Translations under genes and position numbers: made by a program
The notes under the pieces: model-generated
Databases searched by the model: none
The model's input: only the letters and a program-made list of their open reading frames with translations
What the model was told of the DNA's origin: nothing
From: a virus
Strand: one strand, 5' to 3'
Virus record (IMG/VR): IMGVR_UViG_3300025128_000346
Location: 1 to 23,442 of that record
DNA length: 23,442 bases
Shown here: positions 6,534-8,626 of the stretch, one piece after another
Numbering within the stretch: the stretch's first letter is position 1
How the letters are laid out: each line of letters opens with the position of its first letter

Positions 6534-7082
6534 GTGAGTGTATTTCAAAAACTAAAAGACGTTGACATCTCTAAATTAGCAGAGCAAAAAGGTAAGTTTG
6601 ATTACTTGTCTTGGGCACATGCAGTAAGAGAGATGTTGAAAGTATTTCCAGAGGCAACTTGGGAAGTACATGAATATGATAGTATGCCTTACATGCAAAC
6701 AACTACAGGCTACTACACAAAAGTAAGTGTAACAATTGATGGTATTACAAGGACTCAGATACATCCTGTTCTTGATAATAAGAATCAAACTATTGATACA
6801 CCTAACGCTTTTCAGATAAACACATCAATTCAAAGGTGTTTAGCAAAAGCAATAGCATTACATGGTCTTGGTCTTTCATTATTTGCTGGTGAGGATTTAC
6901 CAGATAATATAACAGATAAGCAAGAAAAAGAGTTTACTAAGCTTGCTAATCAAGTTAAAGATGAAAAGGCTAAAAAGGCTATGTTAAGCGCTCTTGAGAG
7001 CGGTAAGATAAACGAATCAAACTATGCAAAAAGTTTGGAACATTGTAAAACAATTATCAAAAATGAAAAAGGAGATAAATAA
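6534..7082 (+). CDS. Single-strand annealing protein, Sak3/DUF1071-like
   Basis: A 182-residue protein with the DUF1071 hallmark segments: YLSWAHA (24-30), a central strand region (YYTKVSVTIDGITRTQIHPVLD) and IQRCLAKAIALHGLGL (99-114), followed by a charged helical tail. DUF1071 proteins belong to the Rad52-like Sak3 group of phage recombinases, which anneal complementary single strands coated with SSB. Start is GTG at 6534 with AAAGGAG upstream; the next Met is too far in. The stop overlaps the SSB start by one base (TAATG). Between nuclease and SSB, it completes a Red-like recombination set. Confidence 0.8.
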   Translation: MSVFQKLKDVDISKLAEQKGKFDYLSWAHAVREMLKVFPEATWEVHEYDSMPYMQTTTGYYTKVSVTIDGITRTQIHPVLDNKNQTIDTPNAFQINTSIQRCLAKAIALHGLGLSLFAGEDLPDNITDKQEKEFTKLANQVKDEKAKKAMLSALESGKINESNYAKSLEHCKTIIKNEKGDK

Positions 7083-7708
7083 TGGCTAGTGAAACAGCTA
7101 AAATGTTTGACGATATGTTAAACGATACAGAGAGTTTCTTTGTTCCAGGCGAAGAAACTGAAACACAAAAACCAAAAAATGCACCAAACGTAAGAGGTGA
7201 GTTTTATGGTCACATGCAAGGAGCTACAAGCAAAGAAGTTTCATGGACTAGAGATGGTAAAACATTTAAAGCTTTAGTTTATAATTATGAGTTTGTAGTA
7301 GATGCAAAAAACGAAGAGAATGAATATACAAAAGGTGATGATACCTATAGCGGTAAAGAGTATGTTGGCAGAACTTATAGGTCTAATGGTATATTTAGGT
7401 TTTTAGAACCAAAAGAGGGCGATGACTTTGTGTCAAACTCTACTGGCAATAAAAGGTACTTTCAGTTTTGTGAGACCATTGGTGTAGAGATACCTAGAAA
7501 AGTAGTTAAAATGGACGGTAAAGATGTTGAGGTTCAAGTTTTACCACCACTTAAAGGAACTGATATTGATGGAGCTCCAGTAATAGCTCTTATAGATGCT
7601 GGAAAACCATATAAAAATAAAGATGGTGAAGAGAGAACACCACACGTTGTTAAATTTGTAAAGCAATGGGAAGGAGGGGTAAAGAAAGATGCAGACATCC
7701 CATTCTAA
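7082..7708 (+). CDS. Single-stranded DNA-binding protein (SSB-like)
   Basis: A 208-residue protein with a beta-rich centre (residues about 35-190) consistent with an OB fold and a C-terminus ending DADIPF. That acidic tip with terminal Pro-Phe is the hallmark of bacterial-type SSB, used to recruit helicases, nucleases and recombination proteins. The N-terminus (MASETAKMFDDMLNDT) is acidic and helical, unlike E. coli SSB, so it is a divergent phage type. The DADIPF codons overlap the start of the next gene. It is translationally coupled to the annealing protein. Confidence 0.75.
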   Translation: MASETAKMFDDMLNDTESFFVPGEETETQKPKNAPNVRGEFYGHMQGATSKEVSWTRDGKTFKALVYNYEFVVDAKNEENEYTKGDDTYSGKEYVGRTYRSNGIFRFLEPKEGDDFVSNSTGNKRYFQFCETIGVEIPRKVVKMDGKDVEVQVLPPLKGTDIDGAPVIALIDAGKPYKNKDGEERTPHVVKFVKQWEGGVKKDADIPF

Positions 7709-7844
7709 GAGAAGATACAGAAAAGTAGGATGGTCCAGAGAGTTTCTTATCAATGCCTTGTATGGTTTTGGTATGAAGGGCAAAAAAATAAGTAGAATTG
7801 TTGGAGTTTCCCCAGCAACAGTCTACAGACACATAAAAAGATAA
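7689..7844 (+). CDS. Tiny helix-turn-helix protein (51 aa)
   Basis: A 51-codon ORF starting at an ATG inside the last codons of the SSB gene (20-base overlap), with a GGAGG-type site at 7673-7677. The product is basic at the N-terminus (SKRRYRKVGWSRE), has one helix (FLINALYGFGM) and ends in a clear helix-turn-helix, KKISRIVGVSPATVYRHIKR (32-51). This resembles the C-terminal DNA-binding domain of Hin-type resolvases and small NinH-like phage factors. Regulation of the operon or site-specific DNA binding at the adjacent dyad is possible. Confidence 0.7.
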   Translation: MQTSHSKRRYRKVGWSREFLINALYGFGMKGKKISRIVGVSPATVYRHIKR

Positions 7845-7848
7845 TTAT

Positions 7849-7944
7849 ATGGGAGACTTTGTATATCGTGAGAATACATGGGTGGTTTTAACGTGGTCCT
7901 CTCTACCGCAATTCTTTTCCGCCTTTTCGGGTCTCCCATTTTTT
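7849..7944 (+). ncRNA. Candidate small structured RNA closed by a 9-bp stem and T-tract
   Basis: ATGGGAGAC (7849-7857) is perfectly complementary to GTCTCCCAT (7931-7939), enclosing 73 bases, and six T residues (7939-7944) follow, like a terminator. Smaller stems are possible inside (GTAT/ATAC at 7861-7864/7874-7877; CCG/CGG at 7919-7921/7928-7930). It fills the gap between the HTH gene and the next ORF. It lacks the T-arm of a tRNA. It could be a small RNA, a leader attenuator or an HTH-protein target. Confidence 0.4.
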
Positions 7945-7957
7945 AAAAGGAGAGAGT

Positions 7958-8116
7958 ATGAAATGTTGGCATTGTAATTCAGAATTAATTTGGGGTGGCG
8001 ACCATGATTACGAAGATTATGGTAAAGAGGGTGAAGGTATAGTAAGTAACTTCAGCTGTCCAGATTGTGAGTCGTACTATGAGTGTTACCTACCTTTAGG
8101 TGGACAAAGTGATTAA
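7958..8116 (+). CDS. Zinc-ribbon protein (52 aa)
   Basis: A 52-residue protein with two CxxC pairs: C3/C6 (MKCWHCNSELIWGGDHD) and C34/C37 (FSCPDCESYYECY), the standard four-Cys zinc ribbon. I recall the opening 'MKCWHCn.eliWGGDHD' from uncharacterised small proteins of many tailed phages. The acidic centre (DYEDYGKEGEG) separates the pairs. AAAAGGAGAG precedes the ATG. Probably a nucleic-acid or protein adaptor; exact role unknown. Confidence 0.75.
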   Translation: MKCWHCNSELIWGGDHDYEDYGKEGEGIVSNFSCPDCESYYECYLPLGGQSD

Positions 8117-8142
8117 TTTATTTAATATTATAGGAGAGTAAA

Positions 8143-8283
8143 ATGAAAAACCGTACATGGAAAAAGGTTCAAAAAATAAGGGCAGAATTAGAAAAAAGTC
8201 CTAACGGATGGCCATTGTGTAAGATGATAGGCGTCGAATACTTTGAGGTAAACAGAACAAAAAAGGGTTGGAAAGATGCGTAG
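8143..8283 (+). CDS. Small basic protein (46 aa)
   Basis: A 46-residue basic protein starting MKNRTWKKVQKIRAELEKSP, with AGGAGAG upstream. The middle (GWPLCKMIGVEYFEVNRTKKG) could be a short DNA-contacting segment. It overlaps the next gene by eight bases. The family is not recognised. Confidence 0.6.
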   Translation: MKNRTWKKVQKIRAELEKSPNGWPLCKMIGVEYFEVNRTKKGWKDA

Positions 8284-8626
8284 GTCAGATATGCAAGCCT
8301 TAATGACAAGAATTATGGATAAAATATCCGAAACAAGAGACGCAGGTCAGAAAGAATATGCAAGAGATTTAGATAATGTATTTGCAAATTTTGAACGAGT
8401 CGCCTCCTTTGTAGGCGTTAACAGGGAAAAGGCTCTGTTAACTTACATGATAAAGCATGTTGATGGTCTATGCGCTTATGCTGATGGACATCAATCACAA
8501 AGAGAAGATGTAAGGGGTAGACTGACAGATATTATAGTGTATTGTATTTTAATGTGGGGTATGGTTGAAGATAATGAAAACCCATTAAGCGGTAAATCTG
8601 CTCCAGGATATGAGCTCAAAGACTAA
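8276..8626 (+). CDS. MazG-like/DUF1599-like alpha-helical protein (116 aa)
   Basis: A 116-residue all-helical protein. The core runs from KEYARDLDNVFANFERVA (26-43) through LLTYMIKHVDGL (54-65) to SQREDVRGRLTDIIVYCILMWGM (74-96). The acidic pairs E77/D78 and D85 lie one or two helical turns apart, as in the metal-binding helices of all-alpha NTP pyrophosphatases (MazG, dUTPase-2 and DUF1599/Nmad families). Such enzymes clean or shape nucleotide pools. I recall close relatives, annotated only as hypothetical, in marine phages. The enzymatic assignment is tentative, because a full E-x-x-E...E-x-x-D set is not visible. Confidence 0.6.
   Translation: MRRSDMQALMTRIMDKISETRDAGQKEYARDLDNVFANFERVASFVGVNREKALLTYMIKHVDGLCAYADGHQSQREDVRGRLTDIIVYCILMWGMVEDNENPLSGKSAPGYELKD

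Follow-up and report, generated by a model that had tools for sequence, protein, structure and literature searches.

The plus strand at positions 7849–7939 of the window, a 23,442-base virus record analysed as a whole, specifies a folded RNA of some 91 nt that is conserved among related phages. The RNA forms a three-way junction made up of a closing stem (P1), a hairpin with a GNRA tetraloop (P2) and a long arm (P3–P4) that carries a U-rich internal loop. That the element, referred to here as E1, is a conserved folded RNA at all is practically certain. It represents an RNA family without an Rfam entry that occurs in two groups of uncultured phages, and structured RNAs of phages are themselves a known kind. 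The case rests on covariation among relatives, which preserve the fold more than the sequence, and E1 is often arranged in tandem with a second undescribed element (E2) and is independent of the gene that follows.

Genomic setting

The early genes of the window lie on the plus strand and encode a PDDEXK exonuclease, a Sak annealing protein, an SSB-like protein and a 51-aa HTH protein; further early genes on this strand encode a 52-aa zinc-ribbon-like protein, an HNH protein, a DnaB-like helicase and a Holliday-junction resolvase. E1 is co-directional with these genes and fills the gap from a stop codon to the next ribosome-binding site, which in some relatives it shares with E2. The features of the locus are as follows.

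7082–7708, plus strand: gene for the SSB-like protein, of no known family
7689–7844, plus strand: upstream HTH ORF, 51 aa, with its stop codon at 7842–7844
7849–7939, plus strand: whole structured RNA element E1, subfamily A (model match 7847–7941; covariation)
7849–7857, plus strand: P1 5′ strand, 9 bp in the window, with 7 bp (7851–7857) modelled for the family
7860–7878, plus strand: P2 hairpin with a bulged A and a GNRA tetraloop at 7868–7871 (fold, covariation)
7881–7923, plus strand: P3 arm, 7881–7885 pairing with 7919–7923; two-sided changes in 5 of 5 pairs (alignment A6)
7886–7918, plus strand: internal loop between P3 and P4 (7886–7892 and 7910–7918), U-rich on both sides in subfamilies A and B, as judged by eye
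7893–7909, plus strand: P4 hairpin, GTGGT/ACCGC with loop CCTCTCT; two-sided changes in 4 of 5 pairs (alignment A6)
7931–7939, plus strand: P1 3′ strand, containing UCUCC, the complement of GGAGA in the Shine-Dalgarno region of the next gene
7948–7952, plus strand: Shine-Dalgarno sequence AGGAG of the next gene, read from the sequence
7958–8116, plus strand: downstream zinc-ribbon-like ORF, 52 aa, ATG at 7958; only weak matches; absent here in several relatives and so not a constant partner

The "SSB" label that the original prediction gave to the upstream gene is unconfirmed. Its product has no Pfam match and a single weak match to PHROG 10094 (function unassigned), no convincing relative among solved structures (one match at E 0.58) and no relative among named phages; in our reading, its C-terminal DADIPF recalls the acidic tails of SSB proteins. 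The zinc-ribbon-like protein, on the other side, is widespread in virus contigs, with at least 599 relatives, and 18 named records contain it, cyanophages and pelagiphage HTVC027P among them. When positions 7500–8300 were compared with named-phage DNA, the sole match, in pelagiphage HTVC027P, comprised the ribosome-binding site and the zinc-ribbon gene, with the element lying outside it. No promoter-like site was found 5′ of the element on the same strand within 7500–8300, and a −10-like GATAAT upstream of the element is not kept among relatives, as judged by eye.

The element in a single sequence

Positions 7849–7857 (ATGGGAGAC) are the perfect reverse complement of 7931–7939 (GTCTCCCAT). The stem encloses 73 bases (7858–7930), runs into six T residues (7939–7944) and sits between the HTH stop codon (ending at 7844) and the next ATG (7958), exactly as the original prediction had described it. 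By itself, however, the 9-mer stem is not significant, since the window holds 18 perfect 9-mer inverted repeats with spacers of 50–100 nt against 13.6 ± 4.8 in 200 dinucleotide shuffles. Repeats with at least five G/C per arm number two by hand count, as compared with 0.31 expected from 100 shuffles. The fold of 7849–7950 reaches −30.2 kcal/mol (z = −3.03, with one of 200 shuffles equally good), and the fixed 100-nt segment 7851–7950 gives only z = −2.3. Single-sequence evidence for the element is weak, and its significance rests on its relatives.

Other segments between 6.9 and 9.2 kb reach z = −3.3 (7101–7200, at the start of the SSB-like gene) and z = −4.8 (8401–8500, coding, inside ORF 8276–8626 of PHROG 6802), the latter exceeding the element's own value.

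Comparison with known RNA families

An Rfam scan had been proposed as a check on the candidate; it was run on the window and relatives, and no family matches the element. Rfam 15 at the gathering threshold gave no matches in the window or in 11 loci with E1 of either subfamily or E2, and the element of the window, of L042 and of L046 drew no match even at E values of up to 10. In L136 there was one sub-threshold microRNA match (14.7 bits against a threshold of 90). Likenesses to hammerhead, TPP and tmRNA were considered and found no support in Rfam. ARAGORN finds no tRNA or tmRNA genes in the window, in agreement with the earlier view that the element is not a tRNA. A literature search conducted mostly at the abstract level found no paper on such an element.

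Relatives and covariation

Two scans with the SSB-like protein as query identified 13 IMG/VR contigs, 12 with the protein at 80–99% identity and one (L124) at 70%, and the element lies behind the HTH gene in all 13. Within the window's own lineage, the element is roughly as conserved as the two preceding genes, and less so in L124. Its length across relatives is 88–92 nt. Every member comes from an IMG/VR contig whose completeness is not stated.

A covariance model, R1, was built from ten sequences, which are near relatives with little variation. Outside its training set, R1 matched L010 (91 bits), L124 (56 bits), L046 (47 bits), L042 (39 bits) and L043 (35 bits), as well as additional members among loci fetched with the E2 pattern described below. 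The window's E1 scores 107 bits with R1 and 100 bits with a second model, R2, both of which include the window sequence.

Alignment A6 holds 17 of the 21 members of this group, subfamily A; L001, L006, L008 and L141 were omitted as their element letters duplicate others. (L010 was left out of alignment A3, where its 3′ half is misaligned.) Across the 17 distinct sequences, 96.8% of 407 cells are paired and two-sided changes occur in 16 of 24 pairs (59 cells). A6 was fitted to R1, which favours the structure, but R1 itself derives from low-variation relatives. None of 500 shuffles reached any of the five measures used, and slid controls gave 2–6 such pairs. The P2 tetraloop, GUGA in the window, is GUGA or GCGA in all 17 rows. 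The pairs of subfamily A include 19 G-U cells and no A-C cells, which identifies the plus strand as the functional one. Single-sequence folds gave, in our reading, the three-way junction in eight of ten members, with L127 and L133 differing (z from −2.1 to −5.6). The proposal of a small structured RNA is thus borne out by covariation in homologous phages, the check named for it, by strand-specific G-U pairs and by single-copy conservation.

A divergent subfamily

Eight records (L125, L129, L132, L133, L136, L139, L140 and L143) carry a divergent form of E1 preceding E2. In this subfamily B the closing stem, UGAGCAGUA/UACUGCUCA, differs from that of subfamily A, and the layout is the same, including the GCGUGAGC tip. 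R2 found four B members in the right place with weak scores (E 0.005–0.42 in 549 kb) that overlap chance matches in L045 (E 0.47) and L051 (E 0.51). A third model, R3, trained with those four members, recovered the remaining four at E 9e-9 to 3e-5, and gives one match per record in all eight B records, four of which lie outside its training set. The match covers the whole element in L129 and L139; the nearly identical L132 and L140 have an insert of some 36 nt after the 5′ strand of the closing stem, and there the R3 match omits that strand.

In alignment A10, which joins eight A and four B sequences, 19 of 24 pairs show two-sided changes, a count reached by one of 500 shuffles; no shuffle of the 500 reached any of the other four measures. 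Slid controls across A6 and A10 ranged from 1 to 10 two-sided pairs. Outer P2 is the weakest helix over both subfamilies (73.7% paired), with the L143 and L125 rows visibly shifted there. Five B members folded with their flanks gave z values of −5.5 to −1.1, the fold of L129 alone being unremarkable (z = −1.1, 30 of 200 shuffles equally good). Among the eight B phages, similarity to the helicase of the window is weak at best, with E 6e-5 to 8e-4 in five of them, and L133 has a 589-aa primase-helicase-like gene in place of that helicase.

Copy number and neighbouring genes

The survey covers 35 records selected for carrying the SSB-like gene, E1 or E2, so that its counts are no measure of the element's abundance. 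Run over whole records, R2 matched 24 of the 35, always at a single place (which in G010 scores on the opposite strand as well), and R2 and R3 together place E1 in 29, the other six having E2 only. Subfamily A is present as a single copy in all 21 records positive for the SSB-like gene and in none of the 14 others. In all 21 members, its P1 starts at the fourth to sixth base past the HTH stop codon; in subfamily B, the stop codon of the preceding gene falls within the P1 5′ strand or at its end in all eight members, the upstream frame of L139 being only 29 aa long.

What follows the element varies. Six genes occur behind subfamily A: the zinc ribbon and those whose products begin MSKNKTW, MKKYCTK, MKKESSH, MISKIY and MKYYKH. 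BLASTP detected no mutual similarity among the six, and hence the element is not dedicated to any one gene. The genes that precede subfamily B differ from those that precede subfamily A; the downstream genes of L132, L133 and L139 were read by hand, the automatic calls there starting inside or beyond E2. The constant is thus the RNA and not the following gene, and the preceding HTH gene is constant within subfamily A only. Riboswitches are found before genes of one pathway; the six dissimilar small genes here speak against that arrangement without strictly excluding a shared pathway.

The idea that E1 controls the zinc-ribbon gene in particular can be rejected: relatives carry other genes in its place, L124 (5861–6040) lacks it behind the element and has instead a homologue of window ORF 8143–8283 (69% over 32 aa), and 6 of 80 zinc-ribbon loci have the element (three of the window's lineage plus L042, L043 and L046). 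R3, applied with L081–L100 set aside, gave no match in the full records of another 36 zinc-ribbon loci. In 18 more such loci and nine other records it gave one, a T-rich stretch of 67 nt in G047 (E 0.0035) that we read as chance.

A second element

Behind E1, many records carry E2, with the layout GGUARC...GUUACC-CUC-GUC-GAAAA-GAG-AAY-hairpin-GAC-UC. E1 and E2 occur together in 15 of the 35 records, E2 alone in six and E1 alone in 14, the window included. E2 is present once in each of its 21 records, with an extra one-mismatch match in G025; examples are the region of L128:748, L131:8119–8196 and L144:2270–2328. It usually ends beside a Shine-Dalgarno sequence, and in L137 some 70 nt before it. 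To judge from the letters, GUC and GAC could pair as a pseudoknot; GAC is absent from the E2 of L126 and L138. The motif letters were set by the search pattern, and their constancy is accordingly not evidence.

No Rfam match to E2 was found in the loci scanned. L134, one of 22 virus matches to the E2 pattern, was dropped as a GC-rich sequence without flanking hairpins, and the 32 matches in GTDB genomes likewise had no flanking hairpins by eye. The pattern GAGCAGTAGAGARYTG matched 47 virus stretches, of which six are known members; three with a distant closing match were read as coding and 38 had no closing arm in range. Divergent E1/E2 stretches compared with named phages gave nothing, or 26-base pieces in lactobacillus phages.

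Possible functions

The reading that we favour, at a little short of an even chance and from sequence comparison, is that E1 may be an autonomous folded RNA module of the early operon rather than a private control element of the next gene. This is suggested by its occurrence as a single copy, by how strongly its structure is conserved and by its indifference to which gene comes next. E1 would be transcribed together with the early genes and act as a folded RNA, either free after processing or as the scaffold of an RNA–protein complex, whose partner protein would perhaps read the GNRA arm and the U-rich loop. Several points count against this reading. A cis-acting leader would likewise be expected to occupy the space from stop codon to ribosome-binding site, and the lower Shine-Dalgarno accessibility predicted upon P1 release in nine E1-only records speaks against it as well. 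Varied neighbours also count against it, given that the manA and wcaG RNAs of marine phages have varied neighbour genes and are nevertheless read as cis elements in the account of PMC2864571.

A second possibility, plausible but rather doubtful, is that E1 would act in cis as an intercistronic switch. Upstream ribosomes, a protein or a metabolite would open P1, whereupon its 3′ strand (UCUCC) or nearby letters would pair with the next Shine-Dalgarno sequence and shut the gene; with P1 formed, that sequence would be free. This role is suggested by the stop-codon-to-ribosome-binding-site packing, with P1 placed at the stop codon in both subfamilies and the ATG 19–30 nt past P1 in the 14 E1-only records, and by modelled Shine-Dalgarno accessibility. 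In all nine E1-only records folded of the 14, the mean unpaired probability of the Shine-Dalgarno sequence is 0.59–0.99 with P1 and 0.11–0.46 with the 5′ strand blocked, while blocking other 9-nt stretches leaves means of 0.48–0.92. However, blocks over the P1 3′ strand cut accessibility as much or more (window, L003, L123, L124), and unrelated blocks also cut it in L002 and L007. The blocking control therefore supports P1 as the main guard of the Shine-Dalgarno sequence in these models, not a specific pairing of the P1 3′ strand with it, and leaves the balance between the two readings where it was. Moreover, GGGAGA/UCUCCC of P1 is kept in seven A records where E2 and not a Shine-Dalgarno sequence comes next, the closing stem of subfamily B is without UCUCC, and opening P1 would cost 5–11 kcal/mol.

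A further, unlikely proposal takes E1 and E2 as the two modules of a single phage non-coding RNA that would belong to a new functional class, either a stand-alone ribonucleoprotein or a catalytic RNA. Such a cassette would move between phage groups with different replication genes into any free intercistronic slot, the window's lineage retaining E1 only.

It is improbable that E1 acts in cis on RNA polymerase to bring about antitermination or pausing, by analogy with the put RNA of HK022. Both are phage-encoded structured RNAs of an early operon, and a single-copy structured RNA independent of the next gene would suit such a role. As far as they are described in PMC9378689, put RNAs are about 70 nt long, form two stem-loops and lie downstream of early promoters. 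E1, by contrast, folds as a three-way junction and sits in mid-operon, the first long plus-strand ORF of the early block being more than 5 kb upstream, and does not have the features that define put.

Equally small is the likelihood of an mRNA processing or stability element that would shape the 3′ end of the upstream mRNA. The model here is the ENE, in which a U-rich internal loop clasps an A-rich tract as a triple helix. The internal loop of E1 is U-rich on both sides in both subfamilies and might clasp such a tract, and A-rich stretches follow E1 in many members, but its U stretches are short, with interruptions, and in genomes as AT-rich as these an A-rich tract is nothing unusual.

A chance stem, an ordinary terminator or a short coding gene can be dismissed: a 9-mer stem within chance expectation, a terminator-like inner hairpin and the 42 codons opened by the ATG at 7849 are outweighed by covariation in A6 and A10, a U-run that is not kept and two reading frames among relatives. 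The six-T run is found in the window, L001 and L009 and is shorter, interrupted or replaced in other relatives, so that the element is no ordinary terminator. Only the inner hairpin at 7893–7909 scores as terminator-like, with a poor tail, and the closing stem spans 73 nt; the suggestion of an operon attenuator is not supported. The original prediction had named a conserved ORF from 7849 as the outcome that would count against an RNA. Two different frames occur among 12 sequences, with element lengths of 88–92 nt among relatives, and a short coding gene is likewise rejected.

Relation to other phage RNAs

The packaging RNA of phi29, GOLLD and ROOL are stand-alone structured phage RNAs. E1 has no Rfam match to them, is smaller and lies among early genes. 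Like E1, manA (RF01745) and wcaG (RF01761) are conserved structured RNAs of marine metagenomes and phages beside varying genes, and the part of PMC2864571 that concerns them links them to sugar, photosynthesis and chaperone genes. E1, unlike these, has no Rfam match and lies among small phage genes without an assigned function. The c4 antisense RNA (RF01695, in a table of PMC2864571) is, like E1, a structured phage non-coding RNA, and the Rfam scan gave no match to it.

As a covariation-backed family, the element offers a defined target for asking what a folded RNA does for phages in early infection. The covariance models from this analysis provide a direct route to it in other collections, isolates and transcriptomes.

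A small protein near the elements

Window ORF 8143–8283 (SPNGWPLCKMIG) may be related to a small, mostly basic protein of 39–78 aa with the motif NGCWW(V/I)E, although BLASTP of the ORF against the L130 protein showed no link. The motif protein itself belongs to no clear family and could be a partner protein. It is encoded within about 1.1 kb downstream of E1 or E2 at 10 of 27 distinct loci, namely L133:3465–3689 and L138:2042–2266 (both on the minus strand), L130, L142, L128, L127, L129, L139, L132 and L126.
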